A stretch of 20,630 bases of DNA from a virus, in IMG/VR virus record IMGVR_UViG_3300020463_000177, positions 1 through 20,630 of that record. The stretch is one strand, 5' to 3'. The stretch's first letter is position 1. Every line of letters begins with the position of its first letter. This document shows positions 1,425 to 13,918 of the stretch, one piece after another. The translations under genes were made by a program, and so were the position numbers. Under the pieces are notes generated by a model. That model searched no databases, was not told where the DNA came from, and was given only the letters and a program-made list of their open reading frames with translations.

Positions 1425-3443
1425 TTAACTAAACTTACTTCTGTATTGATGGGGAAGTGGATTAGCATAAACTTCATCATTTGGATTGATAGGTGGTGGT
1501 GGTGTATCGTTTATTTCCCCACCCGCTGGTGAATCATCTTGTACTAAAATACCCGGTATATCTCTTTTATTCCAAATATACTTACCATCTAATGTTTTAA
1601 ATATAGTTGGATTTGAACCAGCTACTAAAGAACCAGTGCCTGGAGCTCCAAAGACTCCATCTAAATCTAATCTTACTTTTACCGTTAAATCTACATCTTT
1701 TCTAGTTTGAATTGCTGATGCAAGTTTACCTACTGCTATCAAATCACCTGTTGGATTATATAACCCAACTGTTGTAAAGTATGGTGCAAAATCAGAACCA
1801 GTTACCATTCCTTTCATTATAGGACTTTGTGAATCATTATTTAGTTTTAATGTTGGGTGTTGTGATACATTAAATTCATCCTGCCCAACTTCACATAATA
1901 TGTTTACTTCATTTAATTCTTTTGTTGATTTATACTTAGTAGTCCATCCATAATTTGAATAATTTTTATCTGTAGCTTGAGAACCATAATTCCAAGTACC
2001 ACTTTGCCCAGTCCAAACATATCTATATTTTGGTCTAGGGTCTGATACCACCATTATTCCGTGATTATAAAATACTTCACCAACTACATTAGTTTGATAA
2101 GCCGAACCTGTTACATAATCATTATTACCTAATGCTTTTATTTCAGTTTCAGTTAAACCTTTATTATACATACGGAACTCATCTAACGAACCACTTAGTT
2201 GAGCGTAGGATGATACTGAATCTTCAAACCAACCATCTGATATTGCTTTACTACCTAATAACATATCATATGTATTAGATATACCTCTTAGTGTTATAGA
2301 ACCACTAATATCAGTTGGTAGAGAACCAGTAACTTCTTTAACACCATCTACCCATAATTCCATATGAGAACCTGTTTTATTAAAACAAATATGATGTGGT
2401 AAATTATCGTTTATTTTAGTAGTTGAATCTGAGATTATACGTGTGATTCCGTTTGATAATGATATTCTAACTTTACCATTATTATTTGTATTTTGATTAT
2501 GAACTTCTATATCAAATGGAAATTGGTTGGTAGGAATGTTTCTTCTTCTCATAATATCAACCGCCAGATTATCTTGCCCATAATCTTTATAAGTACCTCT
2601 TTTAGATACTATTGAATTATAATTTGAAGAATTATCTGATTGTGATGTTGGTAAAACTGTCCATACAGAAAGTGCGTAATCTGTTGTTTCAAATGCATTT
2701 AATTGCTTTTGATGGTCTATTCTTATGTACGAATCAGAACCATTAAATGTTGCTTTAGTTCCTGATGGTAATTGGAAATCACCTGTTGTTGGAATACCAT
2801 CTGTATAGTTTATATTTTTACCATATGCGTTATTTATGTAACCACTTCTATCTTCAATTATGTTATCAACAATTGCAGTTCTATTAACAACCTCATCATT
2901 AAATCCCCAATAGCCAACTAAATTACCAAATGGAACATATGAACCTGATGGTAACCCATTATCTATTAAATTTCCATGATAGTCATTTAATTTAGAATCT
3001 TTTATTATTATAGATGGTACATTGGATGAAGTCATACTAAAATCAATAACTTCAATTGTTTCAGGTTTTAACCCATCACCCAACCTATTATGTGGAACTG
3101 AGAATATAGATGCGGTTGCATACAAATCTCTTTCTACTCTAGCCCTATGTTTAAAAAACATTTGGTTGATACCAGACCAGACTACTTTCTGATGTTTTAC
3201 TTTTAAAAAATCTGTTGAGTTGGAGTTTGAATTATCTAATTGGTCGGTTTCCCTATAAGCAGGTAATCCAATTGATTCAGAAACATTAATCTTTTCAGCA
3301 AAATCAGGAGATATACCTTTAATGACCGATGTTGAATAATAGTCCGTTCTAAAATTCAAGTCGGTTACTACCCATCTTTTATGGGTGTTGAATGGTCTTA
3401 GTTGAGTGCCACCCCCATTGATAGGTTTGTAAGCTTCTGCCAT
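1425..3443 (-). CDS. Virion appendage protein with central LamG/concanavalin-like domain
   Basis: A 672-residue probable tail or neck appendage. Residues about 175-440 are LamG-like: LVGYWGFNDE opens the domain, AxFNGSDSYIRI and HHICFNKTGSHMELWVDG sit mid-domain, and SGSLDEFRMYNKGLTETEI closes it, the usual order for a laminin-G/concanavalin jelly roll that binds glycans. Residues about 451-595 match the C-terminal part of the neighbouring 361-residue protein, with TTVGLYNPTGDLIAVGKL and VKVRLDL as the clearest shared strings. After that comes a low-complexity tail with PPPPINP near residues 648-654. There are eight (S/T)GS tripeptides. The start has no Shine-Dalgarno; an upstream ATG ten bases away is out of frame. 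Binding of a surface sugar or receptor is inference from the fold. Confidence 0.72.
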   Translation of the reverse strand: MAEAYKPINGGGTQLRPFNTHKRWVVTDLNFRTDYYSTSVIKGISPDFAEKINVSESIGLPAYRETDQLDNSNSNSTDFLKVKHQKVVWSGINQMFFKHRARVERDLYATASIFSVPHNRLGDGLKPETIEVIDFSMTSSNVPSIIIKDSKLNDYHGNLIDNGLPSGSYVPFGNLVGYWGFNDEVVNRTAIVDNIIEDRSGYINNAYGKNINYTDGIPTTGDFQLPSGTKATFNGSDSYIRIDHQKQLNAFETTDYALSVWTVLPTSQSDNSSNYNSIVSKRGTYKDYGQDNLAVDIMRRRNIPTNQFPFDIEVHNQNTNNNGKVRISLSNGITRIISDSTTKINDNLPHHICFNKTGSHMELWVDGVKEVTGSLPTDISGSITLRGISNTYDMLLGSKAISDGWFEDSVSSYAQLSGSLDEFRMYNKGLTETEIKALGNNDYVTGSAYQTNVVGEVFYNHGIMVVSDPRPKYRYVWTGQSGTWNYGSQATDKNYSNYGWTTKYKSTKELNEVNILCEVGQDEFNVSQHPTLKLNNDSQSPIMKGMVTGSDFAPYFTTVGLYNPTGDLIAVGKLASAIQTRKDVDLTVKVRLDLDGVFGAPGTGSLVAGSNPTIFKTLDGKYIWNKRDIPGILVQDDSPAGGEINDTPPPPINPNDEVYANPLPHQYRSKFS

Positions 3444-3472
3444 GCGTTTTCATACTGTTTTAAAAGGTTATT

Positions 3473-4558
3473 TTAAAAATCTAACTTTACCTTAACCAAT
3501 ACTTCATTTGCAAATGATTTCAAAATTGGTTTAGATAATTTAGCCACCGCCAATAATTGTTGTGAACTATTATATAATCCAACAGTAGTTATATACGATT
3601 TAGGATTGTTTGCAAACGTTGTTTGTGAAAACGCCCCATTTGAACCTGATGTATATGATGGATTGTTTGAGAAATTGTATTCACCATTCTTAGCTCTTAC
3701 GAAATAATATGTTGATTGTACTTTTTCTTCATTTCTCGCGGCAAAACCATGACTAGCATTTATAACTGCTGCTCCACTAATTGATGTATGTAATTTGAAT
3801 GCGTTATCACCATTTACATTTGAACCAGTAACTGTACCAAAGTTTAGATTACTATTCATTGTATCAGCGTTTAATACAATTACACCCTGCTCAGGAAATA
3901 CTTTTCCATAATAAGTAGTAGGTGAATAAATTCCGTTTAAGATAGAACCTGAAACTACATTATATACTCTACCAATTTGTGTTGCTGCTTGTTGTGTATC
4001 ACGGCTATCATCAATTAGTTCGATAACTTCATTAGATGCTGATATAGCAACTGCTGAACCAGTATGTGAAATATTTGGTTCGATTGAACCTGATGCTAAT
4101 TTAGCTAATGTAAGTTCAAAGTTACCTGGATCTAATCTATCTTTTAATCTAGCTCTGTTAAGATTAATTGCGTAAATGTGTTCTGTTGATGCACCATTGA
4201 AATCAAATATTCTTTGATTATCAGGAAGTAGAATCTGTGCATACTGAGAGTAAATTGCATTAGAAGGAGAATCTTCATTCTGCCCTAAAGAACCACTACC
4301 CTTATCATGTCCATATGTTACTGAGTATTGAGATTCAGATGTTGAAGCTGTTGATACACCATCAAATATTTCATAATAATATTGTTTTTGAGTAGCTGAT
4401 TGTGCAGATGATGTATGAAACGTAGTTAATGTACCTACATTACCACTCCATAATCCTCTGGTCACTTTTTCTACACCGCCTTCAACAACATCCCCTACTT
4501 TAAATGCTGTGTAAACTCTTTTTGATGTATTAAATGAACCTGCTGGTAAAATTGCCAT
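3473..4558 (-). CDS. Virion structural protein, paralogue of the adjacent LamG protein without the LamG domain
   Basis: 361 residues, mostly beta-prone and rich in Ser, Asn and Gly, with six (S/T)GS tripeptides. No family is recognised by name. Residues about 215-361 match residues 451-595 of the downstream protein: YYGKVFPEQGVIVL against VVGEVFYNHGIMVV, and TTVGLYNSSQQLLAVAKLS...VKVKLDF against TTVGLYNPTGDLIAVGKLA...VKVRLDL. A weaker match links residues 131-154 (NRARLKDRLDPGNFELTL) with 119-134 of that protein (NRLGDGLKPETIEVID). The leader AAAAGGG-AATAAGAT-ATG gives a weak Shine-Dalgarno. It lies between the 220-residue protein (23-base gap) and the LamG protein (29-base gap). A virion component is likely from context; the exact location in the particle is unknown. 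Confidence 0.65.
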   Translation of the reverse strand: MAILPAGSFNTSKRVYTAFKVGDVVEGGVEKVTRGLWSGNVGTLTTFHTSSAQSATQKQYYYEIFDGVSTASTSESQYSVTYGHDKGSGSLGQNEDSPSNAIYSQYAQILLPDNQRIFDFNGASTEHIYAINLNRARLKDRLDPGNFELTLAKLASGSIEPNISHTGSAVAISASNEVIELIDDSRDTQQAATQIGRVYNVVSGSILNGIYSPTTYYGKVFPEQGVIVLNADTMNSNLNFGTVTGSNVNGDNAFKLHTSISGAAVINASHGFAARNEEKVQSTYYFVRAKNGEYNFSNNPSYTSGSNGAFSQTTFANNPKSYITTVGLYNSSQQLLAVAKLSKPILKSFANEVLVKVKLDF

Positions 4559-4581: not shown

Positions 4582-5244
4582 TTATAATGTTGAATCCAAC
4601 GTATTACCTACAGAAATATCAGGATTATTAGTTACAGTTAAATCAATTTCTGTTCTACCACCTGTTTCATTTCCGATTACAAATATTTTAGTTGATATAT
4701 CGGTATTATCAGCTAATACTTTAGTTCTTATTGTAAATGTTGAGTTAGTACTAATAGTAACACTTCTTCTATCTTCATTAGCTCCAACCGCATCTTCGTT
4801 ATTTGCGATTCCAGAACCATCACCTATAATAGCGGCTGCATCTGAATTTAATAATGTAACTGTATATCCTAATGTATCATTACCACCATTTTTAGTTGAT
4901 AGGTTAACTGTTTGTTGTTTTGTACCTTCTTCTAAACTAATTGAACTTGGGTTAGATTCAATAATAGGAATTCTAATAGTATTTTTCGCAAGGGTTAATA
5001 GTTTATATCTTAATGAGTAGTTCTCATCTGTTACTGCCTCAACGATTGGCATGTTTTCAATTATGATTCCATAATAGTCTGAACCTAGCGGATGTGCTGG
5101 ATTCCATAGTTCGTAATCAACTTCATCATCAGCCAATGCGAATTGACTAATAACAAAGAAATCTCTACCTTTTGCCAATAACTCTCTACCCTTCTTTGTT
5201 AGAATAGCGTCTACTGTTATTGATGAATTATCTAAATATCCCAT
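4582..5244 (-). CDS. Virion-associated protein, conserved helical N-terminus plus beta-rich C-terminal domain
   Basis: 220 residues. The first 85 or so (GYLDNSSITVDAILTKKGRE, LADDEVDYELWNP, then NYSLRYKLLTL) look like a compact conserved module I associate with uncharacterised phage structural proteins, but I cannot name the family. From about residue 95 the sequence becomes beta-rich and Ig-like in pattern (alternating strands, LEEG turn, GYTVTLLNSDA, VTISTNSTFTIRT, TEIDLTVTN), suggesting a surface domain. There are no (S/T)GS repeats, unlike the two following proteins. It is the first gene after a 79-base gap holding a putative promoter, and has the leader AAAAGGG-TATAACAA-ATG, similar to the next gene. 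It may start a transcription unit with the two appendage genes after it. Confidence 0.6.
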   Translation of the reverse strand: MGYLDNSSITVDAILTKKGRELLAKGRDFFVISQFALADDEVDYELWNPAHPLGSDYYGIIIENMPIVEAVTDENYSLRYKLLTLAKNTIRIPIIESNPSSISLEEGTKQQTVNLSTKNGGNDTLGYTVTLLNSDAAAIIGDGSGIANNEDAVGANEDRRSVTISTNSTFTIRTKVLADNTDISTKIFVIGNETGGRTEIDLTVTNNPDISVGNTLDSTL

Positions 5245-6384: not shown

Positions 6385-9300
6385 TTATCCGTTAAAGTTA
6401 TTTTTGATATTAAATTCTTTACGTCTATCTAATTCTATTTCTCTACGCTTTCTTTCTTCACTTTCTCTAAATTGAGCTTTCTTAACACGTTCTTGTTCAA
6501 TACTAATAAGTTTTTCAATTTTACGTCTAAACTCTCTAACTTCTCTTCTATACTCTTGCAATCTTTTCCAATAAAGTTCATCATCAACTATCAAATCACC
6601 AATATCCAGTGTTGCAATTCCAGTTCCTGAATCTACATCCAAATTACCTTCATCTGCTGTTTGAGAAGTTTTTATCAATACATTAGGGTCTGCCTTAAAT
6701 ATTTCTATTACCGGCTTACCATCAGGTGTATCGGGTGAATTTGTTGTTAAAGAATCCGATGTCATCTTACATCCTAAATATCTTAGATTAGCAACTGCTA
6801 ATGGTAAATTATCAGTTGTTACTTCAGATGGTTCTAATGATGATGAGCTTGGTAATCCTAATGAAGCTGATAACTCAGAGGAATAAAATAATTTTGTTCG
6901 TTGTGCGTATTTTGCAGGTCTATGAGTTGATATATTTTTTGCAAGTATATCATAATTCCAATATCCATTAGAACCAGTAGTCCACCCATATCCATACCCC
7001 ACATCTGCAGCTGATGAATAATTTAGTATTATATATTTGTACTTAGCTGGCGCATACATATCACCTAACTTTGGATTACCTAAATCTTCTACATCATCTT
7101 TTTGTGATGTTATAATTCTAGTAGCCGTTGTATCTATTGTTGTATCGTAATCAGGTTTTTCTGCTGATAAAGTATAAATTGATTCTGAAATTTCCGTTTC
7201 AAATTGTTTTCTTTCTGCAGATAAAGAATATGAGTTTGTAATCTCTGTTTGTAAAAAATGATGTGATGCCGTAACAGGTCTATCTATAGCTGCTATGGTT
7301 GTAGAATACATTGGTCGTGTTTGTGTTACCTTTGTTAATGATTTAGCTTTAGGTCTTTCTAAGATATGTGGTTCAATTAGAATACCAGAGTTGTAATCAA
7401 CTCTAGCAGGCATTGTTTGTCTGATTTGTTCAAATACCGCCATATCATATTTAGCCAAAATATCTATCGTACTATTTATTAGATTTTTAGATGAGTACTT
7501 TTTAAATACTTGTCTACGAATATAATCTAATTCTTCATTTTGTTCTGTAAACCCTGCTCTAGAATCAGGATTACCAATGTAATCATCAATATCAAAATAT
7601 CCAGTATGATTGTATATATCTTCATTGTACATTTTAGTTGCAGCTAAGTAAACACCAACTACATTTGAATCAACAGGCGCTGAATCGTATTGTGATTTTT
7701 CTTTCTTTTGGTCTGGGTCTAATATACCTGTTAAACTATTTTCTTCGGTTCTAACTTTATTGTTCATAATATTATTAGCACCAGCCGATGGAACTTTTGT
7801 ATAATATTCTTCAGTTACTCCAATTAAATCATCATTTTCAAAATTAAATAAAGATGCAGTTAAATGAGAACCATTTTCTGAACCTGTTATTTGTTGGTTA
7901 GGATGTGATGATGGGTGTGAATCAGGATTAGTAATTGTTTTTAAATTAGAATCAGGAATAAATCTAAACTTTAAATCAAAATAAGATGAGGTAACTGCAT
8001 TACCATGATATGATTCTCTTGATAATGTATGTTCATCAATAACAATATCTTTAAGTTGTTCTGCCCAATATCTTATTTCTTGTATCGAACCACTCATTGT
8101 ATTTGTATCACCCCATAATGATGGAGCTCCAGTTTGATTTCCAAACGCTCTACCAAACTGAACCTCACCACTCCCTGTCCAAGCTGCGTTATAAGATGAT
8201 TCGGTTGAACCATCAATTGAAATACTTGCTGATTTACTTACTGATATTCTATCTTTTCTATTTTTTCTATATTGTAATTTATATACATTATCTTTTGTTA
8301 TATCATCTACAGAGTTTTCTCTTTCTACTATAAGTGTAGCCATTTTAGAATCAAAGATAGGTACATTCATAATAGATGCTGATTTGTAACCACTACTACC
8401 ACTTAGATAGAAATGTATATTTCCATTTGAAAACTCAGCAGCGCTTGAAGTAGATTCATATAATACTGCGAAATCTTTTTCCTTACGAATAATACCAGTA
8501 TCTCTATTTAGATTTTGTTGAAGTTGAAGTTCTATAACATCAATAGGGTTTGGGTCGTTAACTGCATATGTTGTTGGGTCTATATCTGTAATCTTATCCC
8601 AAGGAACTGTAATGAAATTATCGTTATCCATTCTTAAATGGTAAACAAATCTATCGTGCTCCCAATATGGTCTAACTTTAGTATCTATAACAGGCCCGCC
8701 ATATTCTCTAATAGATAAGAATGTTTGAGGAATACCATATGTAGCAATTAATGCTTTAACTGCTCTAGCCGAACCTTTTGTTTTTAGAAGATATGGAATA
8801 TTATTTACAATTCTTCTCCAAATCTCATTATTAATTTGTTCGTGTGGTTTAGATGGAAGTGAACCACTATTAGGTACATTACCAAATTTATCAGTTCCTA
8901 ATCCAAACTCCCAAAGGTTTGATGTATCTTTACCATGTGTTAGTTTCCAACCCATAGATTTTGCAACATCGTAAAGAAGTTCATTTGGCATTCCATCGTA
9001 AGGATGTTCTTCTCTTTCGTTGATAGATGTTAGTGCGTTTATATAAGACCAAGTTATATCAAAATGGTGCCCAATCATATCTACAAATAAAACATATTCT
9101 TTATTTAACGGGTCCTCAACTATTGCTGATGGAACTACTTTTGTTAATCTAGCATCATTAAGAGAATCATGTATACTTGCTGAATCTATTAATCCATTGT
9201 AATGTGATTCTGCTTCTGAGGAAGTTACACTATAATTAACATTTGGATATGTACTTTGTTTAGGCCAAGGTTCTAATGGAAATGCGGAAGAACTATAATG

Positions 9301-10869
9301 AGTATATAAAGAACCTGTTGATTCGGTGTACATCCATCTTTCCCATCCATCCATTCCACTAACAACATTATCTCTACGAACTATTGATTGTGATATGTTT
9401 GTTAAGGCCTCTGAACCACTTACTGATTCTAATGTTTTTATTCTTGCATCAAACGATTCTACTAAAGTTAATTTATATTTAAGATTGTTTACTCTTTCTA
9501 CAGCTGATGAATATTTCACAAAATCTTTAAAATGTGTATAATCAATATTTAATTTAACTCCACCAAACGAACCACTAATATATTTATCAATTATTTGTTG
9601 TGATGTTGATAAGTTTGTATCTAATAAATCATTCCAACTTTTAACATCAGTTCCTTGTGATTTACCATAATTGCCTGAATCTATTTTAAAATTAGGATAA
9701 GAAAAATATGGTTGTTCTTCAGATGATTGTTCTGCATATGTTAATACTCTCTCAATATATGATTCTCTTAGTATCTCATCAATTCTACAAATTAATGGTT
9801 GTAACCCATCTTTTAATGGTTTGTATAATTTTAAACATACTGTTCTAAATGAATTTGGATTTGCGAAGCTCTCATTATAATATCTAACCTTTGTGGTTTT
9901 TTGAATATTTGAACGCCTTTTATTATAAGTACTAATAGGTGGATTATCATAATATTCACCATTTGGTAATGGATATACTCTATCTTCTGGAACATCAAAT
10001 CCTGCTAAATTATCAGAATCATAGTAGTATTTTGGGTTACCTTCTGATTGGCCATCTTGAGGTGCTTCTCTTTCAATTTTAAATTCTATAGAACCCTCAG
10101 CATTTATTTCTAAATTAAATTTAGCACTTCTTCCTGTATTTTGATATACTGGGTATCCGAAAATATTTGGTCTTTTAATGTTGTAAAATTCAATCCAATG
10201 ATTATCACCTTTACTATCAAGTGATGGTGAAAAGAATGTAGCATTATCTGGATTATTTGAATTATCAGGAAATTCGCCTGTTGGATGAGGTACATCTTCA
10301 ACAGTCTCACCTACTCTTGGGTTGTTGTAAAAACTAACATCTGTAATTATTGCTATATCATTATTTTCAAAATTTAAACCTAAGTTTACTTCTGTATCTT
10401 CTGGAGTTGGGTTTAAGTTAATTCTGTTATATAATGATTGTAACTTTAAGAGTGCATCTTCATTAGCTACTTCTAACTCTACTTCCGTTCCATCAGCTGA
10501 AACGTTTATTATTCGTAGTTCACCAGTTAATGGTTTTACAAAATTATAACATATACTATAATATCCATCATCTTGAACACCAAGCCTAACATCCCTTTCA
10601 GGTTTCAGAATAAAATCAATATTAGTATCTGCATCAATAGTATTTAATGAATATTCTAAATTAGTATAGTTTGAACTTACTAAAGAATCAGCAGAATATA
10701 TGTGAGATTCCATCGATGGTAATCCCATTGTTGTTAAATCTGATATTATTAATGGGTAATTTATAGAACTTAAATTTGAGGCATCAGTTAACGAAAACGT
10801 TTTGACATTTTCAATAGGAACTTTCGAACTTACTATAATATCTTTATTTTGAAATCTATCTATTGACAT
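6385..10869 (-). CDS. Large baseplate/tail-associated protein with internal LamG-like domain and C-terminal coiled coil
   Basis: 1494 residues, the largest gene here, placed after the gp6-like wedge where T4 encodes gp7 and later wedge proteins. Residues about 684-726 (IWRRIVNNIPYLLKTKGS, RAVKALIATYGIP, REYGGP) resemble the alpha-helical core of P2 gpI-type baseplate proteins. Residues about 735-985 look like a LamG/concanavalin-type sandwich (NGNIHFYLSG, ATLIVERE, TGSGEVQFGRAFG, SGSIQEIRYWAEQL). Residues about 1150-1180 hold a PARVDYNSGILIEPHILERPK motif that I associate with phage structural proteins. Residues 1203-1257 are imperfect 18-residue repeats. Residues about 1428-1492 are an Arg/Glu-rich coiled coil. 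The AAAGGAA-TAGTAA-ATG leader supports the start. A role at the baseplate periphery is inference; direct equivalence with gp7 is not shown. Confidence 0.68.
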   Translation of the reverse strand: MSIDRFQNKDIIVSSKVPIENVKTFSLTDASNLSSINYPLIISDLTTMGLPSMESHIYSADSLVSSNYTNLEYSLNTIDADTNIDFILKPERDVRLGVQDDGYYSICYNFVKPLTGELRIINVSADGTEVELEVANEDALLKLQSLYNRINLNPTPEDTEVNLGLNFENNDIAIITDVSFYNNPRVGETVEDVPHPTGEFPDNSNNPDNATFFSPSLDSKGDNHWIEFYNIKRPNIFGYPVYQNTGRSAKFNLEINAEGSIEFKIEREAPQDGQSEGNPKYYYDSDNLAGFDVPEDRVYPLPNGEYYDNPPISTYNKRRSNIQKTTKVRYYNESFANPNSFRTVCLKLYKPLKDGLQPLICRIDEILRESYIERVLTYAEQSSEEQPYFSYPNFKIDSGNYGKSQGTDVKSWNDLLDTNLSTSQQIIDKYISGSFGGVKLNIDYTHFKDFVKYSSAVERVNNLKYKLTLVESFDARIKTLESVSGSEALTNISQSIVRRDNVVSGMDGWERWMYTESTGSLYTHYSSSAFPLEPWPKQSTYPNVNYSVTSSEAESHYNGLIDSASIHDSLNDARLTKVVPSAIVEDPLNKEYVLFVDMIGHHFDITWSYINALTSINEREEHPYDGMPNELLYDVAKSMGWKLTHGKDTSNLWEFGLGTDKFGNVPNSGSLPSKPHEQINNEIWRRIVNNIPYLLKTKGSARAVKALIATYGIPQTFLSIREYGGPVIDTKVRPYWEHDRFVYHLRMDNDNFITVPWDKITDIDPTTYAVNDPNPIDVIELQLQQNLNRDTGIIRKEKDFAVLYESTSSAAEFSNGNIHFYLSGSSGYKSASIMNVPIFDSKMATLIVERENSVDDITKDNVYKLQYRKNRKDRISVSKSASISIDGSTESSYNAAWTGSGEVQFGRAFGNQTGAPSLWGDTNTMSGSIQEIRYWAEQLKDIVIDEHTLSRESYHGNAVTSSYFDLKFRFIPDSNLKTITNPDSHPSSHPNQQITGSENGSHLTASLFNFENDDLIGVTEEYYTKVPSAGANNIMNNKVRTEENSLTGILDPDQKKEKSQYDSAPVDSNVVGVYLAATKMYNEDIYNHTGYFDIDDYIGNPDSRAGFTEQNEELDYIRRQVFKKYSSKNLINSTIDILAKYDMAVFEQIRQTMPARVDYNSGILIEPHILERPKAKSLTKVTQTRPMYSTTIAAIDRPVTASHHFLQTEITNSYSLSAERKQFETEISESIYTLSAEKPDYDTTIDTTATRIITSQKDDVEDLGNPKLGDMYAPAKYKYIILNYSSAADVGYGYGWTTGSNGYWNYDILAKNISTHRPAKYAQRTKLFYSSELSASLGLPSSSSLEPSEVTTDNLPLAVANLRYLGCKMTSDSLTTNSPDTPDGKPVIEIFKADPNVLIKTSQTADEGNLDVDSGTGIATLDIGDLIVDDELYWKRLQEYRREVREFRRKIEKLISIEQERVKKAQFRESEERKRREIELDRRKEFNIKNNFNG
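7099..7263 (-). repeat. Imperfect 18-residue tandem repeat inside the 1494-residue protein
   Basis: Residues about 1203-1257 read as two good copies and one decayed copy: HFLQTEITNSYSLSAER, KQFETEISESIYTLSAEK, PDYDTTIDTTATRIITSQK. Shared positions are T-E/T-I, then a hydroxylated or acidic stretch, then LSAE. This may be a short fibrous or beta-hairpin segment. Confidence 0.5.
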
Positions 10870-10880
10870 TTACTATTCCT

Positions 10881-11891
10881 TTAATCCATTCTTGTATCAT
10901 TTGATTCTTCAGCTTCAGTATAATTGTCATCTTCTTGAGCTGGTCCCCAATCGATTGGGTCATCTAATGGGTCTGTTAATGTAACTTCAAAAAGACATCT
11001 ATCACCACGTATAAAATTATCTCTGTAAGGTTCTCCACTCATCTCTGTTTGAACTTGAATTAAATCACCAACCACCATATCTGCATTTACTAAATCATAT
11101 GAAATGTTATGTCTTAAATAACCAGTCCTTCTATCGTTTGAAATTTCATTTCTTAAACTTGAACCGCCCGTATAACCTGCTCTTACTCTAGCTATTTTTG
11201 TTTTAACATCAGTTAATGTTCCAGCTTGCCCACCCATAACACGATATGATACAATAGCATGGAAGTTTAAATCTTTACCTGAATCAATTAGTTCTTGCGT
11301 AATTCTATATCCACCTCGTTGTAATGGTGGTCCGAATGCAATTGAATCCCATTCGATTGATTTATATCCAGAACCTATGAGATATCCTTCAGTATATGCT
11401 TTAGTCATATTATCATCTCTTTCATCAGGACCAGATGCAGGAAAACCTCTACCTGTATAAGTGCTATAACCACTATAGTGAGCGTTATTATATCTTTCCC
11501 CAGCACCTCCGTGATTAGTTATTCGAGATGGTGCGCCCGTCGTTAACTCATATTTACCACTAAATACATCTTCAAAATCAGGATCTAATGAGCTTGCTTT
11601 TATACTTACACCATTAACATATATTTTTGATTCATCAATAAAGTTTTGATTAATAATCTCTAATGGAATATCAGGAAATGGTGTTTTAAGTTCACCCGAA
11701 AGTTCTCCAACTGTTTTATTATAATTTCTTATATTATATTTAGTTGTTACTGCTTTTAATTTGTGAACACCATACTCTCTAGCATCATCCTCATTCAATG
11801 TATAAGACACAATTTGATTGGATGTATTTCTTTTTACATCACGATATGTAACCTGATTTTCGGTTGTTATGTTTGTTTCTTGTGCTGCCAT
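10881..11891 (-). CDS. Unrecognised probable virion protein
   Basis: 336 residues; no family recognised. The N-terminal 100 residues look globular and mixed alpha/beta (REYGVHKLKAVTTKYNIRNYN). Residues about 125-160 are rich in Gly, Tyr and Asn (GGAGERYNNAHYSGYSTYTG), probably a flexible or surface loop. Residues 205-310 are beta-rich (NFHAIVSYRVMGGQAG, LRHNISYDLVNADMVVGDLIQVQTE is too long a unit to name but alternates like strands). The extreme C-terminus is acidic (EDDNYTEAEESNDTRMD). Its ATG overlaps the TAA of the upstream gene by one base (TAATG), implying translational coupling. T4 gp8 has a similar length and nearby position, but I see no sequence match, so I do not assign it. Confidence 0.6.
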   Translation of the reverse strand: MAAQETNITTENQVTYRDVKRNTSNQIVSYTLNEDDAREYGVHKLKAVTTKYNIRNYNKTVGELSGELKTPFPDIPLEIINQNFIDESKIYVNGVSIKASSLDPDFEDVFSGKYELTTGAPSRITNHGGAGERYNNAHYSGYSTYTGRGFPASGPDERDDNMTKAYTEGYLIGSGYKSIEWDSIAFGPPLQRGGYRITQELIDSGKDLNFHAIVSYRVMGGQAGTLTDVKTKIARVRAGYTGGSSLRNEISNDRRTGYLRHNISYDLVNADMVVGDLIQVQTEMSGEPYRDNFIRGDRCLFEVTLTDPLDDPIDWGPAQEDDNYTEAEESNDTRMD

Positions 11892-13918
11892 TATCTTACC
11901 ACTTTAAATACATACCCATCAAAGTATTGTTTACTACTAGCATTATCAACTCTAAATTCAAATTGATAGAATCTTTCTGGCTGAAGAGTATTAAACCAAA
12001 AATTAAAATAGTTTCCAGTCGAATCACAACTTACCTTTGTATAAGTTGTATCATAAGGAACTAAAACTAAATTTGTTTCAACATCTCTAACCTGGTAATA
12101 AGTAGTTTGAGGTAGATATTTAATCGTAGTATATGGATTTGAATCTGCAAAACTTCTTTGAGGATATGATTCCCTACCAATCAAACGTATCTTAGCTTTA
12201 GAAAGTTCTCTATATTCTGATTTTAAATCTTTTGGATATAGAGTTATATTATCTGATGTAAGTGGATTTAGTGAACCTGTTGCGAATGCCGAATCATCCC
12301 ATCTAACTTCTAAGGTAGGTACATAGATAGTATGTGTATCGTTTGAGAAAAACTTAGATGAACCATATTTTATAGAACCAGTCTCAGCTGCAAAATTTCT
12401 TTTAATGATAAATCCATTATTTGGTCTAGAACCACTTATCCAATCAGTAACATAATCACTAACACCCACTTTTAAATCAATTGTTTTCTTTGTAAATGTT
12501 TGAGAATATTTTGTATTACTAATTGATGATGTGTACCACGTACCACCACCAACATTTTTTATATATGAAGCTTCTGATTGAGCTGGTGCATCTAATGAAC
12601 CTGAATATGTTATTTTAAAATCATCTAGTGATGCACTTTGTGCATTAGAACTTGTATTGTAATATGTATAAGCAAATATATAATCACCTGTTTTAGATGG
12701 TGTGAATGATATTGATTGTGTTGCTGCAGCTACATATGATGAGGTTAGGTTAGTAACACCATTTGTCATATTTAATCCATCGGCATCATATATTGTAAAT
12801 CCTATAGCTCCATAATCATTAGGAGTAATAGAAGATGATACTTGATAATTTAAACCACTTTGTAAATTTACTGAATATTGTGCATCACCACCACCTTTAT
12901 GTGAATATAAATTTAGTTTAGATTCTGATGCGAACATTCTAACTTCAGATGTACCATCAAATGCATCTTTAACAACATTTCTTAATTTAAAGTTTCCTTC
13001 GTTTTGAGTGAATGTATCCCACACTATTAAGTTACCTTCTTTTTGGTAAACATAAATTTCATCAAATGAACCTGTTGTAGTTGTACCATCTCCACTTCCA
13101 TCAAAAAAAGTAAATCTTAATTCGTGGTCTCCAGTTACTGTAGCAGCTAAATCAAATGATTGAGTAGATGATGCCGTTATAGCACCAACCATACCAGCAT
13201 AATCACCTTCAGTTTTTATAACACCATTTGGGTCTTTTATTCTAAATGCTACATCATCAAATGAGGCAGGGTCTATTTGGAATTGTACTCCATAGTTTAT
13301 TCCGTTTTGAAGATACGCTGGAAATACCAATGTTGTTCCTGCGAAGTTAGATGCTGATATTATTAGTTGTTCATTTTCAATTAATGCGAATGGAGTATTA
13401 CCATTGAAGTCATTAATTGATTCAGTTAAAAATGCCGAACCACTTCCGTTAGTAAAACCTTCATATAATACAACACCCTCAGTTGGAATTGTTTTTACTG
13501 ATTTACCATTAAATACTTGTGCGATTGTTGTTGGCCATACAGAATCTAAGGTTCTTCTTTCCCAACTTGAACCATCTTTATTAATTGGATTAGCATTATA
13601 TTGACCTGAACCCTCACTCCAACTTTGAGAAACAGGATATACTTCTAATGTGTATTCAGTTAAAACATCATCAGCTTGAGTTGAGGTTAAGTTTAATTGA
13701 AACTTAGGGTCTACTATTTCACCTTCAGCTATTGATGCTGATATTGATGTTAAATCAAATTGTGAAAGTATTCTACTATTACCAATAAAATTTGATTGAG
13801 TTTCCTCATCAAAGATTTTACTAACTTCTAATATCTCATCAAGGCCTGTATTTTGCTGTTTACGAGTATTGTTTTCGTAAATCGTAGAATCTTTTTGTCC
13901 GTATATTCTGTAAATCAT
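11891..13918 (-). CDS. Virion appendage protein: DNRLRE-like scaffold with two inserted beta-sandwich modules
   Basis: 675 residues. Residues 1-130 look like the first half of a DNRLRE-type domain (DSTIYENN, LSQFDLTSI, LEVYPVSQSWSEGSGQY, GSSWERRT). The second half of that pattern appears only at about 455-545 (GGGTWYTS, VGVSDYVTDWISGSRPNNGF, a THTIYVPTLEVRWDDS end). Between them lie two similar beta-sandwich modules, about 149-293 and 298-440, each starting with LYEGF or VWDTF and ending in a FDEIYVY or LDDFKITY strand, as in carbohydrate-binding modules. Residues 545-675 form a further beta-rich C-terminal domain. The leader AAAGAGGAAACACT-ATG has the clearest Shine-Dalgarno in the window. 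It directly follows gp6, suggesting a baseplate-attached adhesin. Ligand unknown. Confidence 0.68.
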   Translation of the reverse strand: MIYRIYGQKDSTIYENNTRKQQNTGLDEILEVSKIFDEETQSNFIGNSRILSQFDLTSISASIAEGEIVDPKFQLNLTSTQADDVLTEYTLEVYPVSQSWSEGSGQYNANPINKDGSSWERRTLDSVWPTTIAQVFNGKSVKTIPTEGVVLYEGFTNGSGSAFLTESINDFNGNTPFALIENEQLIISASNFAGTTLVFPAYLQNGINYGVQFQIDPASFDDVAFRIKDPNGVIKTEGDYAGMVGAITASSTQSFDLAATVTGDHELRFTFFDGSGDGTTTTGSFDEIYVYQKEGNLIVWDTFTQNEGNFKLRNVVKDAFDGTSEVRMFASESKLNLYSHKGGGDAQYSVNLQSGLNYQVSSSITPNDYGAIGFTIYDADGLNMTNGVTNLTSSYVAAATQSISFTPSKTGDYIFAYTYYNTSSNAQSASLDDFKITYSGSLDAPAQSEASYIKNVGGGTWYTSSISNTKYSQTFTKKTIDLKVGVSDYVTDWISGSRPNNGFIIKRNFAAETGSIKYGSSKFFSNDTHTIYVPTLEVRWDDSAFATGSLNPLTSDNITLYPKDLKSEYRELSKAKIRLIGRESYPQRSFADSNPYTTIKYLPQTTYYQVRDVETNLVLVPYDTTYTKVSCDSTGNYFNFWFNTLQPERFYQFEFRVDNASSKQYFDGYVFKVVR

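Follow-up and report, generated by a model that had tools for sequence, protein, structure and literature searches.

Genes A and B of an uncultured T4-like phage, encoding proteins of 361 and 672 residues, are adjacent paralogues of common ancestry. The two proteins share a scaffold of ~260 residues, which is uninterrupted in A and which in B is broken by a nested LamG domain. Judging from the relatives surveyed, this LamG domain appears to be an old and stably retained insert, the single gain or loss of which lies far in the past and which has remained unswapped since.

The window, that is, the whole stretch analyzed, is 20,630 bases long and comes from an IMG/VR virus record, and its long genes lie on the minus strand throughout. 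Reading from the genes for gp25-like and gp6-like proteins, these encode proteins of 675, 336, 1494, 350, 220, 361 (A), and 672 (B) residues, followed by an endonuclease and a primase. The presence of gp6-like and gp25-like wedge genes in one gene run identifies a T4-like baseplate operon. Cultured relatives of A and B occur in Flavobacterium phage immuto (QQO92082 and QQO92083) and Microcystis phage Mel-JY01 (WWT39513–39517), where they are annotated as hypothetical proteins, and more distant ones in Rhodothermus phage RM378. A literature search of limited extent returned no paper dealing with immuto or Mel-JY01 virions.

Table 1. Features of the baseplate operon in the window, and loci of relatives in which gene B is split
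Feature	Positions	Strand	Remarks
DNA primase	20-952	−	conserved neighbor
Phage endonuclease I	983-1408	−	conserved downstream neighbor of B
Gene B	1425-3443	−	672 aa; LamG-bearing scaffold paralogue
B residues 595-672, tail	1428-1661	−	variable length, low confidence; many orthologues without tail
B residues 443-594, C-terminal shared scaffold (VGEVFYNHG ... TTVGLYN ... KVRLDL)	1662-2117	−	BLASTP, profiles
B residues 169-442 (approx.), LamG/concanavalin A-like insert	2118-2939	−	profile, predicted structure, orthologue alignment
B residues 81-168, N-terminal shared scaffold (IFSVPHNRLGDGLKPETIEVID ... HGNLIDNGL)	2940-3203	−	via LamG-less B orthologues
Gene A	3473-4558	−	361 aa; LamG-free paralogue
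A residues 95-361, shared scaffold without interruption	3476-4276	−	profile alignments
220-aa protein	4582-5244	−	immediately upstream of A, position conserved
1494-aa protein	6385-10869	−	optional modules
1494-aa protein, residues ~740-1050	7720-8652	−	optional module
1494-aa protein, residues ~200-345	9835-10272	−	optional module
675-aa DNRLRE-domain protein	11891-13918	−	scaffold broken by optional module
675-aa protein, residues 132-447, insert	12578-13525	−	two tandem ~140-aa domains
T4 gp6-like baseplate wedge protein, 646 aa	13932-15872	−	phrog_219 + phrog_10646
gp25-like baseplate wedge protein, 145 aa	15883-16320	−	phrog_261
Split gene B in relatives	L048:11032-13315, L049:3315-4923, L050:3272-5567, L051:11039-13079, L108:6259-8306, L112:6010-8306

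The scaffold shared by A and B

When compared with each other alone by BLASTP, A and B align at their C-termini (25 of 64 identities, E = 1e-7). Alignment of family profiles extends this similarity to A 215–361 and B 452–594 (138 columns, 23% identity, E = 8e-15), which bears out a match of about 145 residues that the first-pass annotation had seen in the letters. The annotation had also proposed a shorter shared region nearer the N-terminus, and a second, collinear local profile alignment recovers it in the same register, pairing A 95–152 with B 81–135 (NRARLKDRLDPGNFELTL and NRLGDGLKPETIEVID, E = 0.28). Once the LamG columns are removed from B, a single alignment joins A 95–361 with B 81–168 plus 443–594 (E = 1.1e-16). 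With the two window families, the N-terminal motif is not significant, as 19 of 200 column shuffles of the N-terminal part of B score equally high; an equally long extension arises in two of 200 such shuffles.

The decisive evidence for the N-terminal part comes from B orthologues without LamG, which emerged when relatives were surveyed with the C-terminal domain common to A and B and which serve as a bridge between the two families. Sixteen of these orthologues align contiguously with 113 A proteins over A 103–361 (E = 2.1e-28). Their N-terminal part alone scores 42.6 against A, compared with a mean of 13.8 and a maximum of 21.7 for shuffled columns (0 of 150 as high).

From the two alignments, together with the LamG boundaries given by Pfam and AlphaFold, LamG is located exactly between the shared parts, as had been proposed, and it fills a loop that is empty in the LamG-less orthologues. 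In relative L178, for example, whose LamG-less B protein of 317 residues is encoded at 2035–2985, the empty site reads DDGEGNLIFNNEKVGDIIYEHG, and the equivalent in B is HGNLIDNGL-[LamG]-VGEVFYNHG. The AlphaFold models of A and B also have the same order of strands around LamG. The scaffold consists of a beta-strand block that ends in a DD..GNL loop, a VG.VFY.HG.I.V hairpin, a long strand, and a C-terminal block of three strands (TTVGLYN..ELLAVAKL).

No Pfam, PHROG, or NCBIfam family is matched above its curated cut-off by A or by the C-terminal domain that it shares with B, and a PDB sequence search with A gave nothing meaningful. Comparison of the A model with PDB structures (VIA-align on the list from Foldseek) yielded a best Z of 4.3, with T4 gp6 at 3.3; as there is no clear match on this list, we assign the scaffold to no fold family. 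The C-terminal domain profile does resemble the N-terminal domain of P2 gpH-type tail fibers (94% probability, E = 9e-8 over 37 columns), a short-motif result from a single-comparison test in which three other profiles used as controls gave E values of 0.05 to 0.55. The gpH relatives for the fiber profile were drawn from cultured phages because those from viral contigs were too similar to yield one. When C-terminal-domain members were compared with Phage_tail_fib (PF12571), one of 11 matched, at E = 0.27, and the profile–profile alignment again covers those 37 columns only. What A and B have in common with P2 gpH and PF12571 is a GLYDxxGxLIAVAxL motif in the C-terminal block and a baseplate-adjacent context, whereas the PF12571 domain is N-terminal in fibers and in A and B the motif lies at the very C-terminal end of the scaffold. 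It is the second half of the gpH N-terminal domain that A and B match; the start of the neighboring 220-residue protein matches the first half, weakly (74%, E = 3e-5).

The LamG insert and its history

Residues 234–436 of B score 31.7 bits against PF13385 (Laminin_G_3), for which the cut-off is 27.6, and the predicted structure of residues 166–444 is a ConA-like jelly roll (AlphaFold with VIA-align: Z = 23.2, 207 residues, rmsd 2.1) modeled with high confidence (pLDDT mostly 85–96). By both profile and predicted fold, B 169–442 is thus a member of the Laminin_G_3/ConA-like lectin family, in which a sugar-binding role for this copy is putative. The structural matches include the carbohydrate-binding domain of an arabinanase. 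Toxin-like matches were set aside, since they reflect the common ConA-like jelly roll only and are uninformative on function.

The survey took in 245 complete and distinct proteins that carry the C-terminal domain. Among these listed matches, LamG is present in none of the 122 A copies and in 102 of the 123 B copies, where the B class means “not clearly A” and counts second halves of split genes as B. A few LamG-less members of this class, among them the RM378 protein and third copies in L167, L168, and L179, cluster with A on the tree. The gene order A–B–endonuclease–primase is kept both with and without LamG.

In a tree built from the C-terminal region, all 80 LamG-bearing B rows fall within one group of 81 rows (98% support), the sole LamG-less member of which (LR756508, L103) sits on a very long branch and is placed unreliably. 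The LamG label changes twice on this tree, which does not separate gain from loss, and one change is forced. Pairwise identity in LamG tracks that in the scaffold (Spearman 0.90) about as the two scaffold halves track each other (0.91). LamG is the fastest-evolving part (mean identity 48.5%, compared with 55% and 64% for the scaffold parts), and no domain of another type was seen in its place among the 123 B copies listed. The single well-supported group and the correlated divergence are the reasons for which we regard LamG as a stable insert and not as a swapped cassette. The exchangeability that the first-pass annotation had suggested for LamG in B is not supported by the survey of relatives.

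We also considered LamG as a stand-in for a missing fiber. In immuto (L101:20039–27403), the B protein has 357 residues without LamG, and its gene is followed just downstream by fiber and tailspike genes, where elsewhere the endonuclease and primase genes lie. Several LamG-less genomes other than immuto have no evident fiber gene beside B, and so LamG is not a simple fiber substitute at this locus.

Some relatives depart from the architecture of the window. In six of them (Table 1), a break inside the first LamG strand divides B into two genes, the first encoding 188–191 residues; the second starts with a short overlap in L108 and L112 and begins one base later in L048, L049, L050, and L051. 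Five of the six second genes carry a new N-terminal module ahead of the remaining LamG and scaffold, and in the split forms LamG and scaffold would need to assemble from two chains. Other relatives have extra modules before or within LamG. An 894-residue B orthologue (L034:11099–13783, also L039) has a second LamG behind the scaffold, in a longer extension that replaces the tail of residues 595–672. A 273-residue gene between A and B in L036 (11109–11930) looks homing endonuclease-like by eye, with NUMOD-like repeats. The scaffold is present in three to five tandem copies in L100 (18850–27796), which is Mel-JY01, and in L121, L144, L152, and L156. Some of the extra copies bear N-terminal extensions of several hundred residues with almost no Pfam match, giving proteins of up to 1368 residues; Mel-JY01 has five copies, two with such long extensions.

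Nested inserts in neighboring genes

Optional inserts parallel to the LamG of B are found in two further genes of the same operon. The 675-residue protein matches NF033679 (DNRLRE) in two stretches with 34.8 bits against a cut-off of 34, the best stretch (residues 460–538, profile 87–163) lying beyond the insert. Nested inside this DNRLRE domain is a double module of 316 residues (132–447), composed of two tandem homologous domains of ~140 residues (E = 1e-29). Orthologues of 364–386 residues lack it and have a short linker instead. On the scaffold tree the insert state changes four times, at least three of the changes being forced by well-supported branches, and sister pairs such as L006/L016 and L036/L020 differ in it. 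The insert of the 675-residue protein thus varies independently of its scaffold among close relatives, which makes it an exchangeable module.

In the 1494-residue protein, the module at residues ~200–345 is missing in nine of 56 homologues, and that at ~740–1050 is missing only in immuto. The latter contains a LamG-like strand motif of 25 columns, which is seen by hhalign only; neither Pfam nor an hmmsearch with the LamG profile of B finds LamG in this protein. Insertion hot spots near residues 203–240, 770, and 1199–1250 have different fillings in relatives. A recurring design with an exchangeable middle, as first proposed, thus holds in part: there are nested inserts in three genes and the one in the 675-residue protein toggles, whereas the LamG of B does not conform.

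Proposed role and related systems

We consider it probable that A and B are tandem-duplicated forms of a T4-like baseplate-associated scaffold, and that the nested LamG of B projects outward and binds a glycan. Tandem duplication of one baseplate-associated protein would have produced A and B in a T4-like lineage that includes the cultured Flavobacterium phage, and LamG would have come to be nested in a loop of B between the first beta block and the hairpin. The scaffold would act as an anchor at the baseplate periphery, from which LamG would be displayed to bind a host-surface or environmental glycan. A virion location of A and B is suggested by gene context and the weak gpH-like motif, and these two observations lead us to favor an anchor at the baseplate periphery on which LamG is displayed. 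That LamG faces outward and binds a glycan or receptor is likewise suggested by the identity of the domain together with its gene context.

LamG domains are sometimes purely structural. That of B could accordingly be an element of structure or assembly, such as an oligomer contact, and would then owe its stability to its incorporation into the baseplate. Its retention across the LamG-bearing B group and its evolution in step with the scaffold fit such a role, but it is the fastest-evolving part of the protein, and LamG-free orthologues occupy the same locus in other phages; we judge a structural role unlikely, if reasonable. Still less probable, in our estimation, is a true cassette system in which the B loop is a swap site for receptor-binding domains and thereby shifts host range. 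The presence or absence of the insert across B orthologues, the toggling insert of the 675-residue neighbor, and the additional modules that some relatives have ahead of or within LamG would all be accommodated by such a system. Against it, none of the listed B copies has another domain at the site, the LamG label changes so rarely on the tree, and LamG divergence follows that of the scaffold. One might finally argue that A and B are not full-length paralogues at all and share a widespread C-terminal motif plus a chance N-terminal match. The N-terminal motif is indeed insignificant with the window families alone; yet the contiguous alignment of A with LamG-less B, and the failure of any shuffle to equal its N-terminal score, make this explanation highly improbable.

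The proposed anchor-and-display arrangement has known counterparts. The T4 capsid fiber Hoc has a conserved C-terminal anchor that carries variable Ig-like beta-sandwich display domains (PMC10385173). Hoc and B are alike in combining a conserved anchoring part with beta-sandwich domains displayed on the virion, a display that for B is presumed. In Hoc, however, the modules stand in line with the anchor on the capsid, whereas the LamG of B is nested within the scaffold of a protein from a baseplate operon. Phage tail fibers, tailspikes, and baseplate proteins are modular, their domains being gained, lost, and recombined (PMC10684548). The receptor-binding proteins given there as examples are built from N-terminal, central, and C-terminal parts, whereas here modules are nested in mid-domain and in several genes of one operon. 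Modular virion proteins with beta-sandwich display are therefore known already; what is less usual is that the modules are nested and that this recurs in several genes of one baseplate operon.

A broader reading, which we put forward tentatively and regard as doubtful, is that nested insertion is a general mode of baseplate decoration, in which permissive loops in several unrelated proteins have beta-rich modules inserted and removed. If so, these phages would carry a baseplate that is adhesive at several sites, with dedicated fibers or without them, and in one sub-lineage LamG would even be divided over two genes, with a new module between its parts. The scaffold of A and B constitutes a previously undescribed, widespread, putative virion-scaffold family of T4-like phages, and viral contigs contain at least 564 stretches that match it. 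Its insertion site is precisely located in both empty and filled form, and the operon offers a stable insert in LamG beside a toggling one in the 675-residue protein. Whether the turnover of inserts in baseplate proteins, as opposed to fibers, follows host range thus becomes directly testable.
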